From Argopecten irradians (Eukaryota > Mollusca > Bivalvia > Pectinida > Pectinidae), in the NCBI RefSeq assembly GCF_041381155.1, contig NC_091147.1, positions 36,601,553 through 36,665,552 on the forward strand: 64,000 nt of DNA. Reading direction: 5' to 3'. Below are positions 31,299 through 63,228 of the stretch, one piece after another; position 1 is the stretch's first letter; each line of letters begins with the position of its first letter. Both the position numbers and the translations under genes were made by a program. The notes under the pieces were generated by a model. It made no database searches. It was not told the origin of the DNA and saw nothing but the letters and a program-made list of their open reading frames with translations.

Positions 31299-34200
31299 GT
31301 ACAGTAACCAACACATTATAACAATAACAATATATTGGAGATTTCTGTACCATGCTTTTTAACCAAAATTATTTGCATTTGCTTGTCAAAATTATTATCA
31401 TATAAAGATTAACTTTTTTATTTTATCCGGGTATGAAAAATAAATCATAACCCAATAAATTGATTTTCAAGACTAATTGATCAAATAAGATAATTTTATA
31501 CGTGCGATTTAATTGATTTCGTAAAGGATTTTTTGTTCAAATCAAAACGGTTTTTGTTCATAGTGGAATAAAAAAATGAAATTGGCCAATCAGAAAACCA
31601 TATTTAGCATAAAAAATTATAACAAAGAAATTAGAGAATACTCTTTATAAAACCGATATTATAAAAACTATAGTTTAATCCTTATGATTCAATTAAATTT
31701 CGATAATCTCTTCAATAATCAAAATTTTCAGCCAAACAGAAGCGATGTTAGTAAAGGTGACGCCATTTTGCCTTCTTGGGATGATAAACAAACGGAAATC
31801 CTCTTTACACGTAAAATGTAATTAAATAAGTATTAACTGACAATACAGAAGTGAAGTATATGACCATCATGACCTCAATAATGAAAAATTTAAAAATGTC
31901 AAATTCGATTTTCCATCTTATGAATTAAGCCATCGTTGATAAACGGTTTACAAGGTCTGATATCCACAACACTAAAGAAGGACCCCAAAATGAGTAAATA
32001 ATGTAAGTCCGAGTGTTAAAGTATCACTTGAGGGAAATATATTGAGACTTCATAGCTATGTAGATATAATGCGCGCTTGATTTCATATGCTCTACCGCCG
32101 ACAAAGCATAAACGCTATTTAGCATTTGGATAATACCTCATTATAATCATGTTTATTTAAGCATTGAACGCCTTTCAGTTGGCATTCATAGCCAATCGGA
32201 ATGCAAACTCGACAGGGGCAAATTCCATGAAGCGCTAGCGCTTCATGTTGGATTTGCCCCTGTCCAGTTGGCATTAATATTAGCTACGAATGCTAACTGA
32301 CTATATTTACATTTGGCTACAATTTTATGTTAAAATACCAAATGATTTTGCATCTATAGTGAATTAATCAAACGTTATCGCCAAAGATGGAACAACCATT
32401 TGAACAACCGTTTTCCATGATCGCTGACACGATAATTGTGAGAATGATAATGACGTCATGATAAGCGATTGAAGTTTATAGTTTATATGACTGCCAACTG
32501 CGCTTGGTAAGGTTACATAGTGAGAATGCAGTGAAAATGTAAAGATATGTGTGTAACTAACACATAAATGCAAATAAAGTTATTTATTTTACTTTTTGTC
32601 CATGCAGTCCCTTAATAGAAAATAAGATTCATAAGATATTAATTATAACTGTACAAGACTTTTGAAGATTTATTTGTGCAGTGAAGCTACCAAAGACAAA
32701 GGATTCCATTAGCAGTAGCGGTTCGTTGTTGATAACTATTAATAATTTCTAGTTGGAAGTTTCCGCTCAAGTTTTATACCATCTAAACTTCACAGTAACG
32801 GCTACTATTACCTGAGATTACCTGTGATTCTATGAATCTATACTGGGAACATTTCGGAAACAGGTCATAATTCTGCATTAACCCTCCCTACAAAAACACC
32901 CTACCCAGAATTGGTGTTCGGATAAGACTGCTACTTCAATTCATTCAATGTAGCGAATGTCACAAAATAATATATCATGTCTTTTTTGTACTGTATGGCA
33001 CAGGCAACGACCTGGCACCGATTTCTCAAAACAAAAGTGTATACTTAAGGCAAAACTTAAGTTTTTCTCGTTATGTAACTTATATGAAAACTTAAGACTT
33101 AAGTCAGTTTGGGACCTTAGTTTGTTTCGAGAAATCGGGGCCAGATCCTTTTCACTGAATTCCTAGTAATTTGACTCTAGTATAAGTATCATTGATACGT
33201 TTTTAGGTCAGTATAGCTCAGTCATTCGTCTGGAGAAGGAGTTCTGGTCGTGGAGAATGAAAGACTCACCGGCTTACTCCACATACCTAGGTTACTACGG
33301 TTATAACGACAGACTGCGATCATATAACACGTCGATTTTCGACACAAGGAAGGTATACCTGATATATCGAAATGTTTACAAAATTGAATCTGTCATATAA
33401 ATTTTCTTTGTCGGCATTGTTTTGTTCTTAAAATATTCCGTTATGATATCCACATGGATACAAAGAGCACAGACATATTCATATTCAAAATACGAAAAAG
33501 AATAATTACCGTGCAAACAAAATGGTTTACAGTACCAGATATTTATCTAAACAATACAAAAGTATTTTTTCTTTAAGTTTATAATTGAAACAACAAAGAT
33601 ATTAATTTGAAAATTGTACCCTTTTAAAAGAGCAGATTATGAGATTGAGTAAAAAACAACAAGAGGAAGAGAAAAGTAGAAAGAATGGAGAGAAAGATGA
33701 GGTTGGAATGGACTGACAAGGTTCATCACTCTCACTGGTGATGAAGTGATGTTATTCAAAAATCCCATTTTCTCTAATCATTGGCCATAATATGTGTTTT
33801 ACCCTTGGTACATATCTTTCCAAAGATTTTTAAAAACATTCATTGATAAAACAGTTTTGATACATCTAACACTATATGTATATTGCTTCAACATTAGTTT
33901 GATAAAATTATCTGTATAATTTTTACTGTCAGAAAGGCCAAAAATGTAAAACTCTTTATTAAATGGAAAAGAGATTACAAGCATCTCTAATACGGTTTCA
34001 AAAAATCTAAGGTCATCCAGACGCGGTGTCTCTTAATCCCTACTTATCAATTTGACTAGAAAACAAAGCCAACAATTTATCCTGAATGACATTTATTATC
34101 AATAAGACGTAAATATTATCTTCTAGCCTCCACAGATAACTAGATTTATGGAATTTGATGAAACTTTTTTTATCATGAATGGATAAGTCGTTTTATTTCT

Positions 34201-37200
34201 TTGTGGGTGGTACTTATGGGATTGACACAGTATTTAATTTCTCTTATAGGACGACATCGTAGCATTTAATACCAGATTAGGAACAATATCCACAGAAGGC
34301 TTCACTGCTAAACAAAAGGCTGATTACGACATCCTGTCAAACACGTTTACCACTTTTATAGAGGGACATCAATGGGCACTGTAAGTAAGACAACCTATCA
34401 ATCACATATAAAGGGGCACCAGCGGACACTGTAAGTAAGACGGTCCATACATATTATTTACAGGGGCATCAGGGGGCACTGCAAGTAAGACGAGCCATAC
34501 ATATTATATCCAGGGGCACCAGGGGGCACTGTAAGTAAGACGGTCCATACATATTATATTCAGGGGCACCAGGGGGCACTGTAAGTAAGACGACACATAC
34601 ATATTACATACAGGGGTACCAGGTGGCACTGTAAGTAAGACGACACATACATCTTATATACAGGGGTACCAGTGGGCACTGTAAGTAAGACGACACATAC
34701 AGATTATATACAGGGGCACCAGGGGGCACTGTAAGTAAGACGGTCCATACATATTATATACAGGGGCACCAGGGGGCACTGTAAGTAAGACGACACATAC
34801 ATATTATATACAGGGCACCAGTGGGCACTGTAAGTAAGACGACACATACATATTATATACAGGGGCACCAGGGGGCACTGTAAGTAAGACGGTCCATACA
34901 TATTATATACAGGGGCACCAGTGGGCACTGTAAGTAAGACGACACATACATATTATATACAGGGCACCAGTGGGCACTGTAAGTAAGACGGTCCATACAT
35001 ATTATATCCAGGGGCACCAGGGGGCACTGTAAGTAAGACGACACATACATATTATATACAGGGGCACCAGTGGGCACTGTAAGTAAGACGGTCCATACAT
35101 ATTATATACAGGGGCACCAGGAGCACTGTAAGTAAGACGGTCCATACATATTATATACAGGGGCACCAGGAGCACTGTAAGTAAGACGACACATACATAT
35201 TATATACAGGGGTACCAGGGGGCACTGTAAGTAAGACGGTCCATACATATTATATCCAGGGGCACCAGTGGGCACTGTAAGTAAAACGACACATTCATAT
35301 TATATACAGGGTCACCAGGTGGCACTGTAAGTAAGACGACACATACATATTATATACAGGGGTACCAGGGGGCACTGTAAGTAAGACGGTCCATACATCT
35401 TATAAACTTGGGCACCAGGTGGCAGTGTAAATAAGACGAGCCATACATCTTAAGTAGAGAAGCACCAGGTGACACTGTAAGTAAGACGACCCATACATAT
35501 CATATACAGGGGCACCAGTGGGCACTGCAAGTAAGACGACCTATACATATTATATAGAGGAGCACCAGGGGGCACTGTTAGTAAGACGACTCATACATAT
35601 TATATAAAGGGGCACCAGCGGGCACTGTAAGTAAGACGACCCATACATCTTATATACTGGGGCACCAGGTGGCAGTGTAAATAAGACGAGCTATACATAT
35701 TATATACAGGGGCACCAGGGGGCACTGTAAGTAAGACGACACATACATATTATATACAGGGGTACCAGGGGGCACTGTAAGTAAGACGGTCCATACATAT
35801 TATATACAGGGGCACCAGGGGGCACTGTAAGTAAGACGACACATACATATTATATACAGGGGTACCAGGGGGCACTGTAAGTAAGACGGTCCATACATAT
35901 TATATCCAGGGGCACCAGGGGGCACTGTAAGTAAGACGACACATACATATTATATACAGGGGCACCAGGTGGCACTGTAAGTAAGACGACCCATACATAT
36001 TATATACAGGGGTACCAGGGGGCACTGTAAGTAAGACGGTCCATACATATTATATACAGGGGCACCAGGTGGCAGTGTAAATAAGACGAGCCATACATCT
36101 TAAGTAGAGAAGCACCAGGTGACACTGTAAGTAAGACAACCCATACATATCATATACAGGGGCACCAGTGGGCACTGCAAGTAAGACGACCCATACATAT
36201 TATATAGAGGAGCACCAGGGGGCACTGTTAGTAAGACGACTCATACATATTATATAAATGGGCACCAGGGGGCACTGTAAGTAAGACGACCCATACATCT
36301 TATATACTGGGGCACCAGGTGGCAGTGTAAATAAGACGAGCCATACATATTATATACAGGGGCACCAAGGGGCACTGTAAGTAAGACGACACATGCATAT
36401 TATATACAGGGGTACCAGGGGGCACTGTAAGTAAGACGGTCCATACATCTTATATACAGGGGTACCAGGGGGCACTGTAAGTAAGACGACACATACATAT
36501 TATATACAGGGGTACCAGGGGGCACTGTAAGTAAGACGGTCCATACATATTATATTCAGGGGCACCAGGGGGCACTGTAAGTAAAACGACACATTCATAT
36601 TATATACAGGGGTACCAGGGGGCACTGTAAGTAAGACGACACATACATATTATATACAGGGGTACCAGGGGGCACTGTAAGTAAGACGGTCCATACATAT
36701 TATATACAGGGGCACCAGGTGGCAGTGTAAATAAGACGAGCCATACATCTTAAGTAGAGAAGCACCAGGTGACACTGTAAGTAAGACGACCCATACATAT
36801 CATATACAGGGGCACAAGTGGGCACTGCAAGTAAGACGACCTATACATATTATATAGAGGAGCACCAGGGGGCACTGTTAGTAAGACGACTCATACATAT
36901 TATATAAAGGGGCACCAGCGGGCACTGTAAGTAAGACGACCCATACATCTTATATACTGGGGCACCAGGTGGCAGTGTAAATAGGACGAGCCATACATAT
37001 TATATACAGGGGCACCAAGGGGCACTGTAAGTAAGACGACACATGCATATTATATACAGGGGTACCAGGGGACACTGTAAGTAAGACAGTCCATACATCT
37101 TATATACAGGGGTACCAGGGGGCACTGTAAGTAAGACGACACATACATATTATATACATTGGCACCAGGGGCACTGTAAGACGACCCATACATATTATAT

Positions 37201-40200
37201 ACAGGGGTACCAGGGGACACTGTAAGTAAGACGGTCCATACATCTTATATACAGGGGTACCATGGGGCAGTGTAAATAAGACGAGCCATACATATTATAT
37301 ACAGGGGCACCAAGGGGCACTGTAAGTAAGACGACACATACATATTATATACAGGGGTACCAGGGGGCACTGTAAGTAAGACGACACATACATATTATAT
37401 ACAGGGGTACCAGGGGGCACTGTAAGTAAGACGACACATACATATTATATACAGGGGTACCAGGGGGCACTATAAGTAAGACGGTCCATACATATTATAT
37501 ACATGGGTACCAGGGGGCACTGTAAGTAAGACGATCCATACATCTTAAGTAGAGAAGCACCAGGGGGCACTGTAAGTAAGACGACACATACATATTATAT
37601 ACAGGGGTACCAGGGTGCACTGTAAGTAAGACGATCCATACATCTTAAGTAGAGAAGCACCAGGGGGCACTGTAAGTAAGACGATCCATACATATTATAT
37701 ACAGGGGCACCAGGGGGCACTGTAAGTAAGACGAGCCATACATATTATATACAGGGGCACCAGGGGGCACTGTAAGTAAGACGGTCCATACATATTATAT
37801 ACATGGGTACCAGGGGGCACTGTAAGTAAGACGATCCATACATCTTAAGTAGAGAAGCACCAGGGGGCACTGTAAGTAAGACGACACATACATATTATAT
37901 ACAGGGGTACCAGGGTGCACTGTAAGTAAGACGATCCATACATCTTAAGTAGAGAAGCACCAGGGGGCACTGTAAGTAAGACGACACATACATATTATAT
38001 AGAGGAGCACCAGGGGGCACTGTAAATAAGAAGAGCCATACATATTATATACAGGGGCACCAGTGGGCACTGTAAGTAAGACGATCTATACATCTTAAGT
38101 AGAGAAGCACCAGGGGGCACTGTAAGTAAGACATCTATAAGTAGAGAAGCACCAGGGGGCACTGCAAGTAAGACGACCCATACATATTATATAGAGGAGC
38201 ACCAGGGGGCACTGTTAGTAAGACGAGCCATACATATTATATAGAGGTGCACCAGGGCCACTGTAAGTAAGACGATCCATACATCTTAAGTAGAGAAGCA
38301 CCAGGGGGCACTGTAAGTAAGACGATCCATACATATTATATAGAGGAGCACCAGGGGGCACTGTAAATAAGAAGAGCCATACATATTATATACAGGGGCA
38401 CCAGTGGGCACTGTAAGTAAGACGATCTATACATCTTAAGTAGAGAAGCACCAGGGGGCACTGTAAGTAAGACGATCTATACATCTTAAGTAGAGAAGCA
38501 CCAGGGGGCACTGCAAGTAAGACGACCCATACATATTATATAGAGGAGCACCAGGGGGCACTGTTAGTAAGACGACTCATACATATTATATAGAGGGGCA
38601 CCAGGGGGCACTGTAAGTAAGACGGTCCATACATATTATATACAGGGGCACCAGGGGGCACTGTAAGTAAGACGACCCATACATATCATATACAGTGGTA
38701 CCAGGGGGCACTGTTAGTAAGACGACCCATACATATTATATAGAGGAGCACCAGGGGGCACTGTAAGTAAGACGACACATACATATATATACATTGGCAC
38801 CAGGGGGCACTGTAGAGACGACACATACATATTATATACAGGGGCACCAGAGGGCACTGTAAGTAAGACGACCAATACATATCATATACAGGGGCACCAG
38901 GGGCACTGTAAGTAAGACGACCCATACATATCATATACAGTGGCACCAGGGGGCACTGTAAGTAAGACGACCCATACATATCATATACATTGGCACCAGG
39001 GGGCACTGTAAGACGACACATACATATCATATACAGGGGCACCAGGGGGCACTGTAAGTAAGACAGTCCATACATCTTATAAATAGTGACAACAATGAGC
39101 ACTATGCATCAATGGGCACTGTAAGACGACTCATACATCTTACCAGTGGACACTGTAATTATGACAACTCTGACATGATTTTTTTCGTTTTGTACAGTAA
39201 TTCATTGCTTTTGTGGTTGCATTGTACTATGGGACCACCTGTATATGCATGTAATGCAGTACAGTGAATTTAGAAAATTAAAATTTACAAATTAAATGGA
39301 ATATACTATAAAACCGCTTATTTTCGCAGTGACGTCTTCACTTATAACTTTTTGTGGCTTTTCCCCCCGTTTTATAGGTAAAACGCTTTAATGTAAATGT
39401 GGTAGATTAATTATTTTTACTGATTTTGCAATATACGCGGGCAAAATCGCACGCGAAATCCCTACAATGGTTATTTTTCCTCACAATCTGTAAAATTAAA
39501 ATGTCCTAAAGTAACATTCTAAGTAAATATTTTCCTTTATGCGTTTCTTATGCGTTTCTACAGAAAACGAAAGCTGGGTTAGAATTACAGGGTGCCCCAT
39601 AATTCACCTTACACTTTCAAAATGCTATAGCTTTTGACATACACAACCAACAAAAAGATAGTTATAGTATATAAAGGCACACAATCCAGTTTTCTGGTAT
39701 GAATATCATAAAGGAATAATTGATTCTGCTATAACAAAACATCGAAGTTATAATGACGTCACCACGTCAAGCTTGATAATTATATTAATTAGTTTAAACT
39801 AATATACTAAACTGTCTGAGCGACCCCCTGTATGTAGCGACTCCCTGTCTTATGTGACCTTACTTGAGACCCCCCAACGTATTTTGCTATATAATGGGTC
39901 TGTTTTCAGCGACTCCCTGTCTTAAGTGACAAGCGACCATGTTTTTACAACCCAAACATCATAAAAAAGTCTGTCTTGAGCGACTTTTCATTCGCCTGAG
40001 GCCATAATTATGATAGATAAAGAGGTGTGAACATCGAACTAAACATCGACTGTTGACTACGATAAGAGTACATTACTGTGTAACCAGTTTTTGACGGATC
40101 ATGAAAGATCGTTTTTTTTCCACAAAAATTATGCCTTAAACTATTAAAAAGGCTAGATATCATTCAGATATCTCTCAATACTAAACAATGGTAAACATTG

Positions 40201-43200
40201 ACAATTAATAACGGAACACATTAAATAAATCGGCATGTTTTATTTTGCCTACCGTCAGCTGACCGTATCATCCTATGGCTTGGCGTGGATTAGTCGTGGG
40301 TGACTCTCTTCTTGTTTTGTACATGGCATTTACGACCAAACATAATTTCGTTCTTTGATATGAGTAAACAGTCATTATAACTGCCATCCCATAGTCAGAA
40401 AACCCTATATTTTCTTCATAACACCAAAAAGTCTTTTAAAAACAAATGCACACGACTTGGGCTTCTGTAATGGCCGCCATTTGGTAGCAGAGTACAGTAG
40501 ATTTGTAAAATTCAGCAAAATAAAGCCCAGGTTTTAAAATGGTTTGGTTTGATTAGTTTAACGTCCTATTAACAGCCAGGGTCATTTAAGGACGTGCCAG
40601 GTTTGTTGGTGGCGGAAAGCTGGAGTACCCGGAGAAAAACCACCGACCTGCGGTCAGTACCTGGCAACTGCCCCACATGGGATTCGAACTCGCGACCCAG
40701 AGGTGGAGGGCATGTGGTAATATGTCGGTACATCTTAACCACTCGGCCATTTTTTAAAAATGGTACCTCTACTGTACAGTAGTAATGGGTTTATTTAATT
40801 TACACAACATCTGCAATTGTTTTGCTATGGTTGTTTTCTGACAAGTGTGATTTTTGTATTTGTTTTCAAGCCTGAAAAACCATGACACACAATTTTTTTT
40901 TTTTAATTGCAAAAAAATGAGATTTTTAACCCAAAAATGCACCCCCTCCAGATAGATTTTTTTTCTTGAACAAAGTTTAAAACCAAGCATCAATGTATGT
41001 CTGCTTGTAATTTATAACTAGATCTAAATGATTTTTAATTAAATAAAAATCAGGTAATTGATATATTTATAATGAAGAATAAATTAACAGACAATTAAAG
41101 ACAGATTTTTGTACAGTGATGTTGCGGATGAACTTGGACTGCCTTAAGTGACTCCCTGTCTTATGTGACTTTTTGTGATGGTCCCTTGGAAAGTCACATA
41201 AGACAGTCTCGACTGTAATATACTAAAAAGTAATTAACAAAAAACCTGACGATATAGCTGAGTTTCCTACGCCGTGTCGAATATTATGATTAAGTTGCCA
41301 ATGTTTCCAATCAGTAGTATGTATACTGTTTGTTGTATGTTATTTCGTGATACATGCTGCGCTGATCGCATAGATTGTTATATTCTGTATTGATTTTTGT
41401 ACAGATACAGTTCTATAAATCCAGTGAACTTTCTAGGAGGGATCCACTTATATTCCCCAGCTGGAATGGCATCCACCAACACTCGAGGGGACTTTGAGAA
41501 TTACATAGTACAACTTAAAGGAATGCCAAAACTGGTAGGATGATAAACACATTAAAATCTATTGAATTAGCCAAAAGTAAAATTATATCCTTTCAAATTT
41601 AGACGGAGCTATCTGCTCCAGAAACAATGGGGATCATCGGTAACCTGGTCGAACATTTCAACAATATTTACAAGATATATACAGTATGCACACAGGCCTC
41701 TGTCCCTATCGTCTGCCTAGCCATGCGTCATCCGATGTAAATATACTATGTACCGCGTCCTGTGGTATTCTCGAAATTGTCTCAGTGTCATCGTCTGTAA
41801 CCCTTGCCTCACAATCAGCTTAACGGGAGAAGGGCGACTGGTTCCCCCGTTGTCAGTTTAATATGACTGGGTGAAGTGTGTTGCTTGGTGCCTTCATGTC
41901 GGCATGTTTCGGTGATATAGCACTACAAAAAGGGCAAAAAGACACAACATAAATAACCGGACTCTTCCAAACACACACCTGCATATATGCAACACACCGC
42001 ATACATGAGAGACTGCCCTTATATGACCTTGGCTGTCAATATGACGTTATTTAACAAACAAAGCTTGCAAATGACCTGTACTCTAATCAATGTACAGATA
42101 CCACCCCTACACTTGAGTCCTAGTAGTAACAGTTGCCGCTGATCTGTAAGCATCCTATTGCAAGGCATGTCATGTTTTATACTCTGGTGATAACTCCTTT
42201 CACGACTGCCAGAATCCAACCCCGAGGCACCTTACTTACAACAGTCCCGGTGTAACTCCTGGCACGACTGACAGTGTCCAACTCAGAGGCACTTAACCGG
42301 TGTCTTGGCAACTTCCCCAGGCACGACTACCAGAGTCCTGTTGAGCGAGACACCTTACCACTGTCGTGGTGACGACTCCGAGGCAACTTATCACTCTCTT
42401 AGTCACGACTCCGAGGAACCATACCACTGTCTTGGTGACGACTCCGAGGCACCTTACCACTGTCTTGGTGACAACTCCTGAAACGACTGTCGGTGTCCTT
42501 CTCCGATGCACCTTATCACTGTCATGGTGACAAAGCCATGCACGACTTCCATTATCTTGATCCAAGGCACCAAACCGATGTCATGGTGACAAAGCCTGGC
42601 ACGACTTCCAAAGTCTTGATCCAAGGAACCTTACCGATGTCATGGTGACAAACCCTGGCACGACTTCCAGAGTCTTGATCAAAGGCACCTAACCGATGTC
42701 ATGGTGACAACCCCTGCACGACTGCCAGAGTCCTGATCCAAGGCACCTAACCGATGTCATGGTGACAACCTCTGGCACAACTTCCAGAGTCTTGATCCGA
42801 GGCACCAAACCGATGTCAGGATGACAATCCCTGGCACGACTGTCGGTGTCCTTCTCCGATGCACCTTACCACTGTCATGGAAACAAAGCCTGGCACGACT
42901 TCCAGAGTCTTGACCCAAGGCACCTAGCCGATGTCATGGTAAAAACCCCTGGCACGACTGACAATGTCCTTCTTTGAAACATCTTACCACTGTCACGTAC
43001 CAGCCTGGGGTTGTTCCTGGGGTAGAACAGGGACAGAGATTGTAACGTTGGAGTAGGTGGCAGTTGTTAACAGCGTGACTCGGAGAAGTCGTGGTGTCTG
43101 TACATGGCAAAGAATACTTGTCTCTGGACACAAGAAATGCCAGAGTAAATAAACATAGCCCGGTTACAAATGTATATTGCTAAGTCTATCATTTACTGTC

Positions 43201-46200
43201 ATATATATCCGTGGAATTATGTAGATTACTGACCTTGCTATAAAGATACATTCTCTTTTTCTTTTTTTTGTAGATCCAAGAAGTTATAGATTCCATGGCG
43301 TTAGCGATCACATTGAACAGAACACTTCACCGATTTTCCATAGTATGTCTATCGAATCAATGATGGTTCTCTTAGACAAAATATTATTTAAGCAAATTAA
43401 ACAAGATTCTTGTAACTGTCATGAACGCAAATCACTGGGCCTAAAATAAAAAAAATATAAAAGTTTGCTCTTCTCCAATATTTTATTTCAAGTCTTCAGT
43501 TACTTTATTGTTAAAAATTTATTTCCTTTAGCATCGTTTTCGTGCAGACTACGTGATGATGTAAGCTCTATACAATGGTGATAACGTGAACTTATATACT
43601 CTCCTATAATGAAACACAAATTCTATTTAATGTATATACTTTCCTATAATGAAACACAAATTCTATTTAATGTATATACTTTCCTATAATGAAACACAAA
43701 TTCTATTTAATGTATATACTTTCCTATAATGAAACACAAATTCTATTTAATGTATATACTTTCCTATAATGAAACACAAATTCTATTTAATGTATATACT
43801 TTCCTATAATGAAACACAAATTCTATTTAATGTATATACTTTCCTATAATGAAACACAAATTCTATTTAATGTATATACTTTCCTATAATGAAACACAAA
43901 TTCTATTTAATGTATTTACTTTCCTATAATGAAACACAAATTCTATTTAATGTATTTGAACCAAAGATTTGTTCTTTCGATTTATTGTCATTGTCGTTGG
44001 CCACTTGCAAACAGATCATAATAACTTAACCTGTATGTTTTTGTAGGAGGCAGTTCCAGCACAAATTGTGCCCAGTCTCGTCAATAACTCAAAGGACTCT
44101 TACCTCTATGGACCTTTTAGAGAGCGACTGAATTCTACAGAACAACTCACAGAAGAAGATAAGTATGTCGACCTAAAGAATTTCAAATAGAAGGCGATAC
44201 GTATGTCTAACTATATGATGATACTTATGTCTATTTCAAACGTTTTAACAGAGGAAGATTTAAATAACATTGTCTAAAAGCTATTATGGTTGTTTGATAA
44301 TATTCATAAATCTCATGTATTCTTGACTATTTTAAGTATGATAAAGATGACCATTGTTTGTAACATGCTACTTAAGTTTGTAACTAAGAAATGAAGGAAT
44401 ATTATCACATATTGGAAAAAACCTATATCAAGAGCCTTCTATATTGGTTGTAAAACTCAGATAGCACAATCCAATATTCTTAAATTGTAGACATTTTGCC
44501 GAAAATAATTTCGATACTGCTGCTATCACATTCAACTATACGTTTTTATGTAATGATGCAATCGCAACAATTTGTTCCCGAATATTATAAGTTCGACAGT
44601 ATGTAACATATATTACAGACATGATTTACGAACGAGGGGAGCGGCAGCTATTCAGGAGGTCATTCAAGCTCTCACTGATTTAAAAGCTTTTATTGAAAAC
44701 GTAAGTTAAAGTCATTATATTTACATGTATTGTTACATGTAGAGTACAAATGGAGTGGGGAAATGTTATTTGTATCATTTTTAAAGCATTTATATTGATT
44801 CTGCATATTCGTTATTGTGCTAATCATAATTAAAATAATATGTTCATGACTTCATTCACTATTTAAGACGCCTGACATCTAAGAATACACCAAGGTCAAT
44901 TTTAAAACAGCACATCTGTTTGGCCTATTTTAAATGAATGTTCATAAGACCTATGGTCAACTGAATGTGACGCACCGGAGGTAACAAACAAGCCATGAAG
45001 AAATGGTTTTAAGCTGAGTCTATCGTGCTAACTGTTCAACACCATGCTTAATCTTGAGTTTGAAACATATAAGTGTTATTTTTAAAATTATCATCAAATT
45101 AAACATGGAGATCCTATTAGCGTATAATGGCGAATGCATCTATGTTTAAATTTTGATACCTAATCTACATTTACCTACATTTTTTTGAGAATTCTTTTGG
45201 TTTTTTTCAACCAATATAACTACCCTATATAGATTCGGTTATCATTTTACTTTAATTAATATTAAAAGTGTTGTTGAATTTCCATTTTACTGTGACACCT
45301 CTGGTTTCGAAACTTTTGCATTCCTTTATTATTTGATTATATTTGATTATAAGATTACCTCCGGACATACGTTTACAACCCAGTATTATATGCAGTATTT
45401 TGTAGAGTTCTTTTTACAGATTTTTTCAGTCAAGCATTTTCTCGTGGAAAGCTGAAAAGATGAAGATGTCCTGACTCTATTGTTATTATGTTTTATTTCT
45501 ATGCTATTTTTCAGTGGTATTTGATTTGTGATTGTTAGAAAAATGCTGGGTTTTTCTCATTTGATTAATAGGCTGTATTGTTTTCGACAGGTTTACATGA
45601 ATAACACCAGACCCGATACAGGGGTAAACACTATAGACAATGGTGCGGAATTCTATAAGGCATGTCTTAAATGGCATCTGTCAGCGGACATGACGCCAGA
45701 GGAAGTTCACAATCTGGGTCTACAAGAGGTTCAGAGGATCTACCAAAACATGTTAAATGTAGGCTATTCTTTTTTTTGATATTTCACCTGTTATCGTAGT
45801 TAACTCGTTACAGAAAAACATTGAAATTCATAAGACACAATTCATACATGATACTCAAACCCGGTTGATTGATATTATGCCCATCTTCTGCACTTTTTAC
45901 CACGTTTATTACTAAATATTTACTTATTTTTCCTGATCTAAAGCTTTATAAACATTCCTTAACCTATAATTTCCCAAAATGATACAGAAGCTAGAGAGTG
46001 TAACATTTCTCAAGGGCAAACATTGAAGGTATGGGAAATATTAGCTTAAGAACCTTCCTGAACTACTCTAATGTCAATATATTTTCCTTATATCATGATA
46101 TGGTATTACGTATATTCGGCTTAGATGCTTAAACTTCATGGTTTCCAGTCTGTATCAGAATATTCGCATTTGATCTATTCATAGTCTGTATCATATAAGT

Positions 46201-49200
46201 GAAATATGTATGATGAAAAACACATAGATTTATTCCTTATATGTTATGGCATGTAGGGCCTGATACGTTCTTTTTTCCCTCTAACAGGTGATGCAGAAAC
46301 AACAATTTGACGGCACTGTGAAGGAGTATTATGCTTCCTTAAACAACGACTCACGATTCATTTTGGATAATGCGGTAAATAAAATTTTATAAAATTCACA
46401 AAAAAAATCTGCGGTATTGGGATTAAGTACTTTAATACTCTAGCTTTTGATCACCTAACAAGGAATTATTGGTCATGTGACGTCGATTAAGTAGAGGACA
46501 TTTTCTCATTCAAAACCCAAGTTCTAATCCTTTTGTGTCCCTTTTTATAAAACGATTAAACGGCTATTCGAGGGGTTTCAATGACACTTGGTGATACTAA
46601 TCCTTTTTTTCAATTTAGATGCGAGAACTATATTGGAACGAGTATACATATGTCTGAAATCATTGGCATATTTGTGGCGATGGAAGTATAAGTTGGCCTA
46701 CTGGTTGACAATTATTACATCTTATCTGTTTCTAATATTGTTATTCATTGGTTAATCTTAATCCTGTAATTAACGTATTCGCTTTTTGTAATATCAAAAT
46801 GTATAAATGAGACAAAAGCAATTATTTTGTACTACATCGAATTATTAAAAAACCCTATTGTTCTAAAATTAAATTTTCTATTGTCATGATTTCTTATTAG
46901 GAACAAATTATCCAGGAATATGAGAACATGATCCATGATCGGATTGCCCCAAAGATTTCGGAATATTTCGAGGACATTCCAGATATACCTGTAGTGTAAG
47001 TTAAGGAGGGGTATCATTTGGATCGGGTTATTGTATTGTTATGTCGACAACGTACAGCAATTAAAATTCACATTTACGCCAACAAGGTACAAAAGATTTA
47101 TTTTACTTCCATGTAGATAGGTCACAGAAGATTTATTTTAATATTGTGTTCAAATGGTATATAACATGTGTTTTACTTTTATGTCGACATGTTACGGAAG
47201 ATTAATGTTTACTTTCTTGTCGACATGGTACAAAAGATACATATTTGTGTATCTTACTTTTATATCGGCATGGTACAAAAGATATACATATTTTGTGTAT
47301 CTTACTTTTATATCGACATGGTACAAACGATGTTTTAGGTACATACTATCTATGTCACTGTTATGTCGACAGGGTACATAGGGTAATTAGATTTATGTTA
47401 CTATTATCCCGACAGTTTATATAAAATCTATGTTACTGTTATATCGCCAGGGAGAATAAGATTTATGTATATCGACAGGGTATATATAATTTAGGTAACT
47501 ATTATGTCGACAGAGTACATAAACTTTATGTTACTATTATGTCGTCAGGGAACATAAAGTTTATGTTACTATTATGTCGTTGGGTACATAAAAGTTTATA
47601 AATGTCGTTGGGTATAAAGTTATGTTGCTACTATGTCGTCAGGGTACATAAACTTTATGTTACTACTATGTCGTCAGGGTACATAAACTTTATGTTACTA
47701 TTAGTTTCGTCAGGGTATATAAACTTTATGTTACTATTATGTCGTAGGGTATATGTCGTCAGGGTACATAAAGTTTATTGTTACTACTATGTCGTCAGGG
47801 TACATAAAGTTTATGTTACTACTATGTCGTCAGGGTACATAAAGGGTAACTACTATGTCGTCAGGGTACATAAAGTTTATGTTACTACTATGTCGTCATG
47901 GGGTACATAAAGTTTATGTTACTACTATGTCGTCAGGGTACATAAGTTTATGTTACTATAAAGTAGTCAGGGTATAATAAACTTTTTATGTTTACTATTA
48001 AGTCGTCAGGGTACATAAACTTTATGTTACTATTAAGTAGTCTGTCAGGGTACATAAACTTTATGTTACTATCTACGTCGTCAGGGGTACAAAAACTTTA
48101 TGTTAGTTTTGGGGGGGGTGGGTCAGGGTACATAAACTTTATGTTATTGTTACTATTACTGGTATGTAGTCAGGGTATATAAAACTTTATGTTACTATTA
48201 TGTCGATCAGGGTACATAAACTTTATGTTACTATTATGTCGTCAGGGTATATAAACTTTATGTTACTACTATGTCGTCAGGGTACATAAACTTTATGTTA
48301 CTATTAAGTCGTCAGGGTACATAAACTTTATGTTACTACTATGTCGTCAGGGTATATAAACTTTATGTTACTACTATGTCGTCAGGGTATAAACTTATGT
48401 TACTTATGTCGTCAGGGTACATAAATTTATGTTACTACTATGTCGTCAGGGTACATAAAGTTTATGTTACTACTAATGTCGTCAGGGAACATAAAGTTTA
48501 TGTTACTATTATGTCGTCAGGGTACATAAACTCTTTATGTTACTATTATGTCGTCAGGGTATATAAACTTTATGTTACTACTATGTCGTCAGGGTACATA
48601 AACTTTATGTTACTACTATGTCGTCAGGGTACATAAACTTTATGTTACTACTATGTCGTCAGGGTACATAAACTTTATGTTACTACTATGTCGTCAGGGT
48701 ACATAAAGTTTATGTTACTACTAAGTGTCGTCAGGGTACATAAAGTTTATGTTACTATATGTTCGTCAACATAAACTTTATGTTACTACTATGTCGTCAG
48801 GGTACATAAACTTTATGTTACTATTAGTGTCAGGGTACATAAATTTATGTTACTAATATCAGTTGTCAGGGTACATAAACTTTATGTTACTATTAAGTCG
48901 TCAGGGTACATAAACTTTATGTTACTATATTGTTGTCGGGTAATAAATTTATGTTACTATTATGTCGTCAGGGTACATAAACTTTATGTTACTATTATGT
49001 CGTCAGGGTACATAAACTTTATGTTACTATTATGTCGTCAGGGTACATAAACTTTATGTTACTATTATGTCGTCAGGGTACATAAACTTTATGTTACTAT
49101 TATGTCGTCAGTCGTCAGGGTACATAAACTTTATGTTACTATTATGTCGTCAGGGTACATAAACTTTATGTTACTACTATGTCGTCAGGGTACATAAACT

Positions 49201-52200
49201 TTATGTTACTATTAAGTCGTCAGGGTACATAAACTTTATGTTACTATTAAGTAGTCAGGGTACATAAACTTTATGTTACTATTATGTCGAAGTCAGGGTA
49301 CATAAACTTTATGTTACTATTATGTCGTCAGGGTACATAAATGTTTATGTTAAATTATGTTACTATTATGTCGTGGGGTACATAAAGTTTATGTTACTAC
49401 TATGTCGTCAGGGTACATAAACTTTATGTTACTACTATGTCGTCAGGGTACATAAACTTTATGGTACATAAACTTTATGTTACTATTATGTTGTTAGGGT
49501 ATATAAGATTGATGTTACTATTATGTCGACAGAGTACGGAGCTTGCCTTATGATGGTCCCAGTGGCGCATACAGCCCTGCTACAGAAGGCCAACCAGGAT
49601 CATTCTACGTAAATGTATACAGGCCAAAAGAGCAGTATGATATTTTATATTTTAAACATTATGATTATATCTTGGTTGAAAAGCAATTTGTCTTTGGTTA
49701 AATCCTTCTGTCCACCAAGTCATAGACTGAGAACTGAAAAATCTTACCACAAGGTTCTCATGAAATAACTTTTGTTTACTACTGCCACGTATAACCAATT
49801 TTTCATACCAGTTTTCACCAATTTTACTAGTCGGAAACTTTGATTATACCTGTAATGTTTTACAAGTAAATAAAGGTTAACGTTTAACGGACTCTGGTTT
49901 GGTCGACGGCATATATATTGTATCATAGGAAACCATCATTTTTATACGTTTGCCACAATGCGTATAAGTTTTAACAATTGGGTATAGACTAATCCAAACC
50001 AAGGATGGACTCAATTTCATAAAACGCTTCGCTTTAATAAGAATACATATCGATTCAATCTCTATATGTAAATAAAAAATCAGTTAAGTAATATTAAGGT
50101 CTTTTTAAAGATTATCGATTAAAAATGTATTTACGGTAAAAATACCAAAACCTATTCAGGTATCTCTTCAGACTGTTACATATTTTAAAGATTTTTTAGT
50201 GACTCAAACCCGATATATGTAAACAATATCTCTCTCAAGATTGAGAATATGATTTTTCTTTCTATGAACTTTTTTTCTTTTCGGTCACGATTTCCTACAT
50301 TATTCAGAGAATCTATGAATTAATGATAATATTTAATTTTAGCCCTACCTATGAGTTCATTATGATTGTATATCAGCACTACTGGTATGGTTTTATGATA
50401 ACTGTATTTCAGCCCTACGTATGATTACATGAATCTTGCTTTGCACGAGGCGATCCCTGGTCATCATCTCCAGGTAGGTAAACAGATACTGCATAATACA
50501 ACATATTCATGAACATTATTGTCGTGGTTTTGATCGTCGTGGTTTCAGAGGAATATGCTCCAATGAAGTGGGTTTTTTTCGTTTTGCTTATTCACACTTT
50601 TCATTTATTTATTTGATTAGTTGTGGGCATGACTAGCTGTGTTTATCGTTTTAGCACATCGTTGCTCTCAGGGCCAACTTGCCTGATTACCGAAGGCAAC
50701 CACAACTCTCCTATTATGAGCCACCTTTCTATTTTCCGTTTTATACAGCATACGTTGAGGTAAGACCTAGCGAGCTTGGATACTTTTATTGTCGAAATTT
50801 AATCTCATATGGATTATTATTATTTTCTTATGAATTTAGGTATTACAAATGTTCATGACGAATTATTTCCCTTTGTACGTTCTAGCCATATCCAATGTTA
50901 ATGCAGAACTACTTCCCTTTGTACGTGTACGGTCGTGGTAGCCGAGTGGTAAAGATGTCCTAACACATTACCACAAACCATCCGCCTCTAGGTTGCGAGT
51001 TCGAATCCCATGTAAATACTGACCGCATGTCGGTGGTTTTTTCTCCGGGTACTCAGACTTTCATTCACCAACAAACCCGACACGTTCTTAAATGACCCTG
51101 GTGTAATAACGGGATAAACTAACATACACAAAACTAAAAGAAAATCTCAGTAAAGTTATAAGTATTAGTTATTGAGTAAGAATATGTGTAACTTTAGATG
51201 TAAAGGCGTAGTTATACCGTAGCTATGGACATACTCAGACATCGCTCTGTTCAATAGTTTACATAATAATGCTAATTGTATGAGATGTAAAACTAGTTTA
51301 TTGTTGATATAGGGGTGGGCTTTGTACACGGAATACCTCGGTGAGGAGATGGGTCTGTATAAAGACGATTATGAGCTGTAAGTTACAATTATTTTCCAAC
51401 CATTCTGTGATTTTATCACATCTGTATACACATTGTTATATCATGATATTGTTAATGTTTGATTTGTTGCATGCATGACAAAAGACATTCCCTCGGGTTT
51501 TGGTGGGGTTTTTTTTATTTTCAAAAGATTAAAATATACTTTTATTGGATGTATTGATTTTTGTTTGACCGATGAAGGCGATTAAAGTTAATCAACAAAG
51601 AAAAATATGTTTACCATATTATCGTTTTTGAAACCTTTTATGTACTTATGAGATTAGTTTTTGCTATACACATTGATTTTGTTCAGAAAACTAATCAATT
51701 CCTTGACAGGATGGGGCGATACAGTGCCGAAATGTTAAGGGCTTGTCGGCTAGTAGTAGATACCGGACTACATTATTTCAAGTACGTATTTAAGAACAAA
51801 AGATAACAATGAGAGTTTATATCCACAGCCTAGTATTTCTTTAAGGTTAATACTGCAAATCACTTCAACTTTGGAGTAAAATATATGTTAACGTCTTCGA
51901 TACTTTCAGCATATTTGTAAACACATAAATTCGCGATCAAGGTCTCTTACTGACAATCGTACATTCATGTATACATTTTACACAATTATTTGAGAAATAT
52001 TTAATTCGCGTTCGAGATCTTTTCGAAATTACGCGAAAAGTTGAATCATGAAACTGAAGTGATTTATAGTATAAACTTAATGGAGTCTAGTTATTGTAAA
52101 TAAATCTGTCGTATCAAAACTATAACATATCCAAATATGATTTTTAATGGAATTTACGTTTATAACATTTGATGAAGAAGTTCATACATGAAAGAACGCA

Positions 52201-53236
52201 CTCACTTTTTTCACTACATACACAGGCAATATACCTTTAGGTAAATTAAGGTCAATTTCAGGTCAAGATTTATTCACGTCAAATTGACCTGAAGACATAT
52301 TGTATGTATCATTTCCAGCCCATATATATCTTAACTACAATAATGACTTACATATTCACATCTCATTCAGTTTATAAATCGTTGATATTGATTAATTAAA
52401 CCTATCTCATATGTTCAAGTGTGTTTTACTTAATGATTTGATCACTTTGTAGTTGGGACCAACAGAGAGCTATAGAATACATGCTAAACTACACTGCTTT
52501 CTCCCGCGAAGCAACCACTATCGAGGTCAACCGGTACATAACCCTTCCGGGTCAGGCGTGTGGATACAAAGTGGGAGAAATACGTATCAAGGAGCTGAGG
52601 TCTAAGGCGGAAACGGAACTGGGTATGCAATAGATAAAACTATAGTTCAACTTACTCCGGAAAATGCATTCAAGAACAATATAGTACTGAATATAATAAT
52701 GCAAACATACTTTGAAATAAATTCAGTTAAGATGAATGTTCGCACATATCTTGATTTCTAACGTAAATAAGCTAAAGAGGTTATCGTATCTATCTTTGAT
52801 TCCATTTTAATCCCGGAAAATTTAACCATACAATTTTTTATGTGGATATTTTAGTAACCAGCAACCATCCTGTAAGTATGATGTTTCTTTCAACTCCTTA
52901 TTTCCAAAACATGTTTTGTTTTCTCCCCAGGTTCGCTATTTAACCTGAAAGACTTATACTCTCGACTTATGACTTTTCTTTCAACTCCTTATTTCCAAGA
53001 CATATTTTGTTTTCTCCCCAGGTTCGCTATTTAACCTGAAGGACTTCCACACTGTACTTTTGACGAATGGCCCTATGCCTTTAGACGTACTTGAAACGAC
53101 GGTCGACGATTGGATAACAAACACCAAGAACTCCGCTCCGTCACCAACATCAGCTGCCTCAGCCATTAGGCAAAGCGAGATAATCCATACGATCGGGTTG
53201 CTCAATTGTGCGCTATTAGGATTTATATTTGTTTAA
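31244..53236 (+). CDS. secreted/GPI-anchored DUF885 family protein (metallopeptidase-like), 17 exons
   Basis: Spliced model: 31244-31298, 33207-33352, 34250-34380, 41405-41534, 43274-43342, 44047-44162, 44619-44700, 45591-45758, 46288-46374, 46901-46995, 49533-49634, 50413-50473, 50655-50759, 51313-51377, 51710-51781, 52453-52622, 53022-53236. That is 1869 nt, 622 residues, with all introns GT-AG and all phases joining. Residues 1-19 are a signal peptide. The rest matches the DUF885 domain (Pfam PF05960), common in bacteria at 550-600 residues. Key blocks: [13 protein letters not shown] (HExxxGHH, 405-412), GWALYTE (450-456), RLVVDTGLH (484-492), [15 protein letters not shown] (522-536) and [10 protein letters not shown] (567-576). 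A serine/proline/alanine-rich stretch and a hydrophobic tail (609-622) suggest a GPI anchor. The HExxxGHH motif suggests a zinc peptidase-like enzyme, but substrate and activity are unknown. Introns 3 and 10 are filled by minisatellites built from splice-site sequence. Confidence 0.95.
31675..31770 (-). repeat. dispersed repeat copy (related to 7165-7310)
   Basis: On the minus strand it shows AAAATGGCGTC, CGCTTCTGTTTGGCTGA, TATTGAAGAGAT and ATAAGGATTA in the order seen at 7165-7310. It lies in intron 1 of the DUF885 gene. Confidence 0.65.
32161..32547 (+). mobile_element. non-autonomous element with a ~125-bp palindrome
   Basis: A palindrome spans 32176-32300 around AGCGCT|AGCGCT at 32231-32242. 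The inner arms GACAGGGGCAAATTCCA and GGATTTGCCCCTGTC are nearly perfect, and the outer arms are built on CAGTTGGCATTC and GAATGCTAACTG. The whole 32161-32547 stretch is related to 55990-56345, sharing the starting GCATTGAA..TTCAGTTGGCATT and the ending TTGGTAAGGTTACATA. It lies in intron 1 of the DUF885 gene. Confidence 0.75.
33207..33352 (+). CDS. DUF885 gene exon 2
   Basis: Follows TTTTTAG and ends at GTATAC. It encodes residues 19-67, including [15 protein letters not shown] and [11 protein letters not shown], which match the N-terminal part of DUF885 proteins. Confidence 0.93.
34250..34380 (+). CDS. DUF885 gene exon 3: source of the donor minisatellite
   Basis: Follows CTCTTATAG and encodes [14 protein letters not shown] through FIEGHQWA. 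It ends in phase 2 at GGGCACT|GTAAGTAAGAC. Its last ~26 nt plus the first ~24 nt of the intron are the apparent founder unit of the 50-bp array that follows. Confidence 0.93.
34374..39172 (+). repeat. 50-bp minisatellite made of the exon 3 donor; ~95 copies
   Basis: A continuous array fills most of intron 3. The consensus unit runs GTAAGTAAGACGACACATAC, ATATTATATACAGGGGCACC, AGGGGGCACT. The real exon 3 junction, GGGCACT|GTAAGTAAGAC, is reproduced exactly in most units, and similarity extends ~26 nt into the exon. Most units keep GTAAGT; variants are GTAAATA, GCAAGT and GTTAGT. The part CACCAGGGGGCAC (or CACCAGGTGGCAG) resembles the CTCF core. Larger repeats of 650 bp and 300 bp are visible inside. 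Open frames on the minus strand are by-products of the period. Confidence 0.97.
39800..41235. mobile_element. non-autonomous DNA transposon-like element with nested SINE
   Basis: The left part (ACTGTCTGAGCGACCCCCTG, then CGACTCCCTGTCTTATGTGA) and the right part (GAAAGTCACATAAGACAGTC, then TCGACTGTAATATAC) are loosely inverted. Motifs CTCCCTGTCTTA(T/A)GTGAC occur at both ends. A family 1 SINE is inserted at 40541-40749. No transposase frame was found. Limits are approximate. Confidence 0.45.
40541..40749 (-). mobile_element. tRNA-derived SINE (family 1), minus orientation
   Basis: Same head, core and tail as 56611-56828. The B box here reads GAGTTCGAATCCC and the head ends at the complement of ATGGCCGAGTGG. 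It is nested in the 39.8-41.2 kb element within intron 3 of the DUF885 gene. Confidence 0.88.
41405..41534 (+). CDS. DUF885 gene exon 4
   Basis: Follows TTGTACAG. It encodes [14 protein letters not shown] and [14 protein letters not shown], resumes phase 2 from exon 3 and ends in phase 0 at GTAGGA. The 7.0-kb intron before it holds the minisatellite and a transposon-like element. Confidence 0.93.
41808..42060 (+). mobile_element. SINE-like element (family 2), plus orientation
   Basis: Body CGACTGGTTCCCCCGTTGTC, then GTGAAGTGTGTTGCTTGGTG and GGTGATATAGCACTA, then the tail TATGACCTTGGCTGTCAATA shared with family 1. It matches the reverse complement of 62701-63075. It lies in intron 4 of the DUF885 gene. 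Confidence 0.75.
42190..42995. repeat. tandem repeat, ~59-bp unit, about 13 diverged copies
   Basis: Units carry GTCATGGTGACAA, GGCACGACTTCCAGAGTC and CCAAGGCACC. GTCATGGTGAC recurs at 42521, 42580, 42639, 42698 and 42755. It lies in intron 4 of the DUF885 gene. Confidence 0.9.
43274..43342 (+). CDS. DUF885 gene exon 5
   Basis: 69 nt after TTTTTGTAG, ending at GTATGT. It encodes [18 protein letters not shown], matching the helical segment after the first DUF885 block. Confidence 0.9.
43593..43957. repeat. tandem repeat, 40-bp unit, 9 copies, nearly identical
   Basis: TTCTATTTAATGTATATACT recurs every 40 bp from 43621. Copies are almost identical, so the array is recent or homogenised. It lies in intron 5 of the DUF885 gene. 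Confidence 0.97.
44047..44162 (+). CDS. DUF885 gene exon 6
   Basis: Follows TTTTTGTAG and encodes [15 protein letters not shown] and [11 protein letters not shown]. It ends in phase 2 at GATAA|GTATGTC. Two diverged copies of the donor word follow in the intron (GATACGTATGTCT near 44196 and GATACTTATGTCT near 44219). Confidence 0.92.
44619..44700 (+). CDS. DUF885 gene exon 7
   Basis: 82 nt between ATTACAG and GTAAGTT. It encodes [20 protein letters not shown] and the following segment to phase 0. Confidence 0.92.
45591..45758 (+). CDS. DUF885 gene exon 8
   Basis: 168 nt between TTCGACAG and GTAGGC. It encodes [20 protein letters not shown] and the [14 protein letters not shown] segment, typical of the middle of DUF885 proteins. 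Confidence 0.94.
46288..46374 (+). CDS. DUF885 gene exon 9
   Basis: 87 nt between CTCTAACAG and GTAAAT. It encodes [20 protein letters not shown] and a short tail, phase 0 on both sides. Confidence 0.9.
46901..46995 (+). CDS. DUF885 gene exon 10
   Basis: Between CTTATTAG and GTAAGTT. It encodes [20 protein letters not shown] and DIPDIPV, ending in phase 2. The minisatellite begins about 40 bp downstream. Confidence 0.92.
47035..49532 (+). repeat. ~35-bp minisatellite ending at the exon 11 acceptor; ~65-70 copies
   Basis: It fills almost all of intron 10 (46996-49532). The consensus unit runs GTCGTCAGGGTACATAAACT, TTATGTTACTATTAT. The last unit, ACTATTATGTCGACAG|AGTAC, is the real 3' splice site of exon 11. 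The first ~500 bp contain longer, diverged units (GTCGACATGGTACAAAAGAT). CATAAACTTTATG inside each unit is an inverted repeat whose centre is C in some units and G in others. Plus-strand open frames here are artefacts. Confidence 0.95.
49533..49634 (+). CDS. DUF885 gene exon 11
   Basis: Follows ATTATGTCGACAG, the last, exon-abutting unit of the minisatellite. It encodes [32 protein letters not shown]. It ends in phase 2 at GAGCA|GTATGA. Confidence 0.93.
50322..50424 (+). repeat. duplicated exon 12 acceptor, 70-bp offset
   Basis: ATGATAATATTTAATTTTAG followed by CCCTACCTATGA (to 50354) resembles ATGATAACTGTATTTCAG followed by CCCTACGTATGA (50394-50424). Use of the upstream acceptor would shift the frame and reach a TGA after about 25 codons, so the downstream site is chosen. 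Confidence 0.65.
50413..50473 (+). CDS. DUF885 gene exon 12: HExxxGHH motif
   Basis: 61 nt between GTATTTCAG and GTAGGT. It encodes [20 protein letters not shown], the family's signature metal-site-like block. A duplicated acceptor lies 70 bp upstream. Confidence 0.95.
50655..50759 (+). CDS. DUF885 gene exon 13
   Basis: 105 nt between CGTTTTAG and GTAAGA. It encodes [20 protein letters not shown] and FPFYTAYVE, leading into the GWALYTE block. Confidence 0.94.
50931..51125 (+). mobile_element. tRNA-derived SINE (family 1), plus orientation
   Basis: A box GGTAGCCGAGTGG, B box GAGTTCGAATCCC, core TTTTTTCTCCGGGTACTC and the family tail, diverged. It lies in intron 13 of the DUF885 gene. Just upstream, CTTTGTACGT with flanking sequence is duplicated (about 50869 and 50916). 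Confidence 0.85.
51313..51377 (+). CDS. DUF885 gene exon 14
   Basis: 65 nt between GATATAG and GTAAGT. It encodes [20 protein letters not shown]; the conserved glutamate of this block is a likely functional residue. Ends in phase 2. Confidence 0.95.
51710..51781 (+). CDS. DUF885 gene exon 15
   Basis: 72 nt between TTGACAG and GTACGT. It encodes [20 protein letters not shown] and HYF, a conserved DUF885 block. Ends in phase 2. Confidence 0.95.
51848..52076. mobile_element. MITE-like element with ~26-bp inverted ends
   Basis: TTAATACTGCAAATCACTTC at the left pairs with GAAGTGATTTATAGTATAAA at the right. The interior holds TTCGCG words. No coding capacity. It lies in intron 15 of the DUF885 gene. 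Confidence 0.6.
52453..52622 (+). CDS. DUF885 gene exon 16
   Basis: 170 nt between TTTGTAG and GTATGC. It encodes [33 protein letters not shown] and [12 protein letters not shown], the most conserved C-terminal block. Ends in phase 1. Confidence 0.96.
52884..53060 (+). repeat. 91-bp tandem duplication of the exon 17 acceptor and first codons
   Basis: CTTTCAACTCCTTATTTCC, TTTTCTCCCCAG and GTTCGCTATTTAACCTGAA occur twice, with acceptors before 52931 and 53022. The offset of 91 is not a multiple of three. The upstream acceptor reads [15 protein letters not shown] and stops at TAA 53032-53034, inside the second copy. Confidence 0.93.
53022..53236 (+). CDS. DUF885 gene exon 17: C terminus and stop
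   Basis: Follows TTCTCCCCAG and encodes [20 protein letters not shown], a small-residue linker ([10 protein letters not shown]) and the hydrophobic tail [14 protein letters not shown], then TAA at 53234-53236. The tail is typical of GPI-anchor signals. The same acceptor and first codons also occur 91 bp upstream (see 52884-53060). Confidence 0.94.
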
Positions 53237-63075: not shown

Positions 63076-63228
63076 CTGAAGGGAAAAAATGAGGTGGTGT
63101 CAAGGACAATGTCAGGGAAAACAAGATATGGTTACAATTAACATCACAAGCTACAAGATACACCATGAAAATAATTATATTTTTACTATTTCTAGTAAGA
63201 TACAATGTAAGTATTTTCAGTTTTCAGT

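Follow-up and report, generated by a model that had tools for sequence, protein, structure and literature searches.

Minisatellites that lie across exon-intron boundaries have been described in amphioxus under the name of mirages, in the genes Adh3, BflGb6, BflGb9, PGBD5 and TnC (PMC3087553, PMC3902484). There, both 5' and 3' boundaries are affected, units measure 10-160 bp, copy number is variable, normal splicing is reported for several of them, and the Adh, globin and TnC mirages come with no report of aberrant mRNA. Human genes in segmental duplications are described in another study (PMC2812944) as carrying variable tandem repeats at exon-intron boundaries, on average with 30-bp units in four copies, which are reported to alter transcripts and in some cases to form new introns. 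A model by Rogers, as cited in these papers (PMC3087553, PMC2812944), holds that introns can be gained by the tandem duplication of segments that include splice signals. In the open-licence literature, as far as its visible text extends, the boundary minisatellites met with were those of amphioxus and of human genes, and no molluscan case was found. Here we describe such an array in a scallop, Argopecten irradians, within a 64,000-nucleotide stretch of DNA (the window; C14:36601553-36665552 of a searched genome of 845.8 Mb in 1508 contigs). The myosin regulatory light chain of this genome places the host among the scallops and not the lancelets: over residues 23-156, exact runs cover 133 of 134 positions of the scallop chain, which is that of Argopecten irradians, and the query itself aligns with the scallop chain 1b7t_Y across all 156 residues. 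The first 22 residues did not appear as exact runs at the locus, and a COX1 search gave no match. It is a 50-bp tandem array at the exon 3 donor of a gene of the DUF885 family, and its units resemble binding sites for the chromatin protein CTCF. Some tandem repeats do bear CTCF sites, among them DXZ4 and the subtelomeric 61-bp repeats, and the variable-number tandem repeats (VNTRs) of SLC6A4 reportedly have a CTCF link as well.

We consider it likely that the scallop array is a tolerated minisatellite that was born at the boundary between exon 3 and intron 3, that its CTCF core is a by-product of this origin, and that no function is needed to account for it.

The array and its founding junction

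Tandem Repeats Finder (TRF) reports one array on the + strand at 34374..39081, with a period of 50, 94.7 copies and 86% matches, and the repeated unit consists of the last ~28 nt of exon 3 joined to the first ~22 nt of intron 3, the donor included. The count agrees with the first-pass annotation, which had recognised about 95 same-strand units at 50-bp spacing. The same annotation had placed all of them in one intron, which is true only in part, given that the array does continue into intron 3 but begins on the exon 3 donor and repeats that donor. Wrap-around alignment of 34364 to ~39170, ragged ends included, yields 97 units; the series begins with the authentic exon 3/intron 3 junction and closes with two ragged units.

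Exon 3 (34250..34380, + strand; placed by translation, with 77-81% amino acid identity to exon 3 of two paralogues) ends in ..GHQWA-CT and is followed by GTAAGTAAG. The authentic 5' splice site is the GTAAGT at 34381..34386 (+), as judged by sequence and frame, and reading through it gives CTG TAA, an immediate stop. The founder part of the unit is the ..TFIEGHQWA codons plus CT that make up the last ~28 nt of the exon.

The same array is present at the homologous exon 3 donor of two DUF885 paralogues, L009 (81.7 copies) and L010 (54.8 copies), which are located at C14:24.40 and 24.44 Mb, 12 Mb from the window gene. Derivation of the unit from an exon end and an intron start is clearest in these paralogues, because their authentic junctions differ from their own array consensus at just one (L009) and two (L010) of 50 bases; the corresponding number in the window is 12. 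Given this make-up of the unit, a donor is present in nearly every copy. With the real junctions and ragged ends dropped, GTAAGT is exact in 69 of 94 window units, in 72 of 80 from L009 and in 48 of 53 from L010. An 18-mer of the donor core, GGCACTGTAAGTAAGACG, occurs 136 times in 846 Mb, always on the + strand, with 54 occurrences in the window, 48 in L009, 34 in L010 and none elsewhere in the genome. In three further DUF885 paralogues (D, E and F) the exon 3 donor is present but has given rise to no array.

The array consensus is identical in L009 and L010 and differs from that of the window in 3 of 50 columns. Mean distances between units, out of 50 positions, are 7.36 and 7.95 for the window against the two paralogues and 4.81 for the paralogue pair; within arrays they are 6.68 (window), 3.88 (L009) and 5.18 (L010). 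For the four-fold sites of the genes themselves, the differences between the window and the two paralogues number 71 in 220 and 65 in 219, and those between the paralogues 52 in 230. Outside the array, the blastn matches listed between the window gene and the paralogues are mostly short and located on exons. Those between L009 and L010 extend past exons in places, at 64-79% identity.

Resemblance to CTCF sites

Each unit had initially been described as containing GCACCAGGGGGCAC, which matches 13 of the 14 positions of the CTCF core CCASYAGRKGGCRS, with all cores facing the same way as the gene. The orientation is borne out when the array is scored with CTCF matrix MA0139.1 (entered by hand), in that 81 matches of at least 8 bits are found on the + strand and 0 on the - strand. 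The uniformity of the core was overstated. GCACCAGGGGGCAC is exact at 36 places in the array, and the best match to CCASYAGRKGGCRS among the 97 units covers 13 of 14 positions in 45 of them, 12 in 36, and 11 or fewer in 16. The array does score above shuffled units, a comparison that the first-pass annotation had proposed: its consensus scores 17.24 bits, a value attained by 1 of 3000 dinucleotide-shuffled units. Window units have a median of 11.59 bits, with 65 of 97 at 10 bits or more and 45 at 14 bits or more, and the rest of the window, on both strands, holds four sites of at least 10 bits and none of at least 12. Scores are lower in the homologous arrays, where the medians are 5.96 bits (L009; 16 of 82 units at 10 bits or more) and 6.15 bits (L010; 14 of 55).

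It had also been observed that exon 3 of the window fits the core poorly, from which the array was thought to have moved toward the motif. The observation is accurate (10 of 14 positions, 0.09 bits), but the conclusion is not supported. Comparison with the window's own exon 3 is misleading, because the exon 3 ends of both paralogues fit 12 of 14 positions and already score 13.34 bits (11.42 bits for the paralogue founder in tandem context). Since exon 3 of the window has itself drifted through synonymous changes (GGA CAT CAA), there is no necessity for the array to have started from a poor site. From this common level the window array rose and the two paralogous arrays fell. The gain in the window is a change from TGG to GGG, which would replace Trp in a coding copy, and the loss in the sister arrays is a change from CAC to CAT. 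We therefore rejected a trend of array evolution toward CTCF, as one unusual event suffices and two sister arrays moved the opposite way.

One of the 150 possible single substitutions of a founder-like unit yields the window score, and so do 180 double substitutions among 20000 made at random. When 50-base units of matching composition were drawn at random, 21 of 20000 scored at least 13.34 bits and 2 of 20000 at least 17.24 bits. On the strength of the latter frequency, we roughly estimate that between one and about a dozen of the genome's arrays would match as well by chance, where the density guide is 40 arrays in 258 kb, a sample picked around DUF885 genes, and the lower figure assumes a tenth of that density. 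To judge from these sequence comparisons, the CTCF likeness looks to be inherited from exon codons with the addition of one mutation, and not to be the reason for the array. Other arrays with CTCF-like cores and unrelated units are found at C2:9340383-9341649, C3:50956745-50959951, C6:19741627-19742230 and C7:1125248-1126447.

Donor arrays elsewhere in the genome and features of the host gene

Other exon ends of the genome would have been affected in the same way. Of 81 exons in eight DUF885 genes, 8 have at least two further donor-side copies within 3 kb downstream and 2 have acceptor-side copies upstream, where two of the donor-side exons (the 42-bp unit of gene G and the 23-bp unit of gene H) were added by eye. 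The window gene, A and B represent one donor event, which leaves six donor events, and both acceptor rows concern the same exon, in the window and in B. Donor junctions were read from the sequence, since the best-scoring GT or AG fell off the junction in the window, in D and for the 42-bp unit of G; both acceptor rows are uncertain. The donor-side arrays at other exon ends have units of 43 bp in D, of 71, 83 and 42 bp in G and of 23 bp in H, and these are mutually unrelated. In gene G (L025 and L026, C14:1536861-1545328), the end of exon 2 and its donor (..EFDRLK/GTTAGT) recur as a 71-bp unit in ~119 copies (97.7 and 21.3 by TRF) across 8.5 kb, followed by the 83-bp array at the exon 3 donor.

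Examples outside the DUF885 family include a leucine-rich repeat (LRR) exon (PF13516, E 8.3e-10) that is followed by a 47-bp donor array, and a 41-bp donor array of at least 6.4 kb at C1:2890660-2897056 that starts from an exon-like ..FYFYRFWR/GTAAGT. This exon-like stretch has no Pfam match; we presume a resemblance to nrf-6-type acyltransferases.

Genome-wide, the donor triple AGGTAAGT N20-50 AGGTAAGT N20-50 AGGTAAGT occurs 8740 times (4777+3963), tenfold above the 886 occurrences (394+492) of the reversed pattern, although such triple counts are non-independent, with many matches per array, and include ordinary single donors. An acceptor-type triple with TTTACAGG occurs 4178 times (2107+2071) against 2187 (1444+743) for its reversal, and many of the listed places are TTTACAGGTGT, which is also donor-like. 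A broader proposal, to which we give somewhat less than an even chance, is that minisatellites in this scallop genome arise preferentially at exon-intron junctions and especially at donors, so that many introns would begin with tens to more than 100 copies of their own donor and form a large class.

The host gene has its exons on the + strand, and its homologues were matched exon by exon. Assignment to DUF885 (PF05960) rests on the later exons of the window, which when joined score 237.5 bits (E 7.5e-70) against a cut-off of 32.4; exons 2 and 3 joined remain under it at 21.2 bits (E 2.5e-4). The coding part of exon 2 lies at 33206..33352 (tblastn of exon peptides, with positions converted from C14), and exon 4, the first exon found 3' of the array, at 41415..41537 (tblastn against paralogues). 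Further exons were located by homology to the paralogues at 45645..45758, at 50423..50473, which encodes HEAIPGHH, and at 52457..52624, which has 88-89% amino acid identity to the two array-bearing paralogues; all are on the + strand.

A second array in this gene, with 35-bp units, is located at 47468..49467 (+), as delimited by TRF, acceptor-side copies and reading of the sequence. Its portion at 48156-49467 has 37.1 copies and runs up to a DUF885 exon at ~49513-49659 on its acceptor side, and the unit looks like the start region of that exon (TATGTCG-CAG-GTAC), so that this may be an acceptor-side, boundary-born mirage. A 40-bp array of 9.1 copies with 99% matches, apparently very young, occupies 43593-43955 in a later DUF885 intron. 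Farther along, a long degenerate array at 57013-59878 has G-rich units such as AATATCTAGGGGGATTTGGGT, and GC skew reaches 0.80 at 58001-60000, an extreme strand asymmetry. An open reading frame (ORF) at 63211-63738 (+) has a membrane-spanning-like stretch, which we take to be reminiscent of molluscan TNF ligands, and its sole Pfam row is under the cut-off. Another ORF, at 11305-11673 (-), has a PAN_1 domain (E 1.2e-5), and copies of a dispersed repeat, with a similar peptide readable in one frame, occur at window positions 1633, 40590 and 56443. A match to an enterotoxin family of Pfam (E 0.095), which stays under the cut-off, was put down to chance.

Origin, alternatives and relation to known systems

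If the array is a junction-born minisatellite, then an ancestral DUF885 gene would have undergone tandem duplication of ~50 bp across its boundary between exon 3 and intron 3. This would have preceded the DUF885 gene duplications, rather than involving transfer between loci, because the same unit is found at the same place in three paralogues. Growth may then have proceeded by slippage or unequal exchange, and the similarity of units points to partial homogenisation within each locus. The first donor is presumably used and the others skipped, because splicing at any other would retain an in-frame stop, the TAA of GTAAGT. The CTCF likeness would have begun with the codons GGG CAC CAG TGG GCA (Gly-His-Gln-Trp-Ala), which together with their flanks supply 12 of the 14 core positions, and one T to G change that spread among the non-coding window copies would have brought this to 13. 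Throughout, the array would have had no function. Tolerance could account for the difference between donors and acceptors, in that a surplus donor located after the first can be passed over whereas a surplus acceptor ahead of the real one tends to be used. It leaves unexplained why arrays are seeded at junctions in the first place.

Given the high scores on a single strand, the array might instead serve as a platform whose same-strand cores bind CTCF and halt cohesin, thereby creating a one-sided boundary or slowing polymerase near exon 3. Binding is possible, to judge by the host protein, because the candidate CTCF (L016, C2:51442436-51443017; 63% identity to human over residues 2-196 of the searched stretch) retains the DNA-contacting residues of its central fingers. 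At the four contact positions of each finger, with host residues compared by eye, fingers 3, 4 and 5 are as in human and finger 7 keeps Arg and Asp, while finger 6 is altered at three of four; the conservation on which the CTCF proposal depended is therefore largely present. CTCF probably works in this scallop, because its genome is rich in perfect cores, with 710 occurrences of CCASYAGRKGGCRS (358+352) against 46 (23+23) for the reversed pattern, a 15-fold excess. CTCF sites are also reportedly enriched at the borders of topologically associating domains (TADs) in the squid Euprymna (PMC10658181). Nonetheless, we regard the platform as quite unlikely. The homologous arrays score lower, the first C of the core is G in 93 of 94 window units and T in the other, and the estimate given above allows for arrays this good by chance. 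Rare variants, defined as those in one or two units of an array, also reveal no constraint on the core columns in the three arrays: of 118 such variants across the 94, 80 and 53 units, 37 fall in the 14 core columns and 33.0 are expected (p 0.41). Nor do genome-wide counts give any sign that CTCF cores are favoured array seeds, since close pairs of the form CACCAGRKGGC..CACCAGRKGGC number 208 (42+166), barely above the 167 (92+75) of a reversed pattern that contains CpG, and these counts are non-independent, with one C3 array providing most of the listed places. The CTCF story for this array is probably coincidental.

The donor half of the unit suggests another role, wherein repeated GTAAGT binds the U1 small nuclear ribonucleoprotein (snRNP), strengthens exon 3 or shields the long intron from early cleavage, and is kept for that reason. 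Although most units have an intact GTAAGT, three paralogues retain the array and donor triples abound in the genome, this too strikes us as unlikely, as rare variants in the six donor columns number 10 against an expected 14.2, which is no significant sign of stronger conservation than in the other columns, and paralogues D, E and F possess the exon 3 donor and no such array. Very unlikely is a scheme in which the extra donors are hidden by RNA hairpins formed within each unit and the first alone is open. Pairing between CUGUAAGUAAG and CUUAUAUACAG is possible, and a two-unit stretch from a paralogue folds better than 200 of 200 shuffles (z -3.31), but the first two window units fold no better than shuffles (z +0.32) and single units do not stand out (z -0.49 and -0.95). 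When the shuffles preserve the periodicity, the window unit has a z of -2.54 and the paralogue unit one of -0.86, and eight other units range from -1.58 to 1.11. In the window, the real donor has a local probability of 0.10 of being unpaired, compared with a median of 0.019 among 84 decoys, 11 of which equal or exceed the real one; the proportions in L009 (26 of 68) and L010 (20 of 45) amount to no difference. Donor masking as a general rule was rejected.

Several points count against the junction-born minisatellite and its extension to other exon ends. Accurate splicing at the first donor is an assumption. Units differ less between loci (0.10-0.16) than do the four-fold sites of the genes (0.23-0.32), which turnover explains, though constraint could do so too. 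The non-independence of the triple counts has been mentioned, and one of the two arrays sampled outside DUF885, at C1:1099220, has no clear exon. Furthermore, the test by random placement is weak: 6 arrays touch donors where the mean is 2.74, a number reached in 88 of 2000 simulations, and 1 touches an acceptor where the mean is 2.68, which is no excess.

With these caveats in mind, the general message of a junction-born minisatellite is that large tandem arrays can arise from exon-intron boundaries. A gene that carries its own donor dozens of times offers a natural experiment in how the spliceosome chooses among near-identical donors. Should donor-born arrays be as frequent as the counts suggest, they would contribute to the growth of introns, to polymorphism in their length and perhaps to their gain, and chance matches to regulatory motifs would be frequent. 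Preferential seeding at junctions, if true, would point to duplication coupled to splicing or transcription (R-loop or U1-linked), or else to donor arrays being favoured by selection, and mirages would then be known from bivalves as well as from lancelets.

Like the CTCF-bearing repeats of DXZ4, the subtelomeres and the SLC6A4 VNTRs, the scallop array consists of tandem units with a putative CTCF link; unlike in those repeats, its core is not conserved between homologous arrays. Each tandem copy has its own splice signals, as in the model by Rogers as cited, but no new intron or exon is seen in the scallop gene and the intron merely holds the array. The likeness to the human boundary repeats lies in a minisatellite at an exon-intron boundary of duplicated genes, and the difference lies in scale, with a 50-bp unit in ~95 copies in place of 30 bp in four. 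The array fits the definition of a mirage in unit and position, in that the unit spans a homology-confirmed exon-intron boundary and the arrays start at the authentic donor in all three genes. As in the amphioxus mirages, the units include the last exon bases and the splice site and are internally homogenised. The scallop copy numbers, ~95 here and ~119 in gene G, exceed the two to seven of the globin and PGBD5 mirages, and the scallop case further differs from those of amphioxus in that it occurs in a bivalve, is kept in three paralogues and is accompanied by a donor bias in genome-wide counts.

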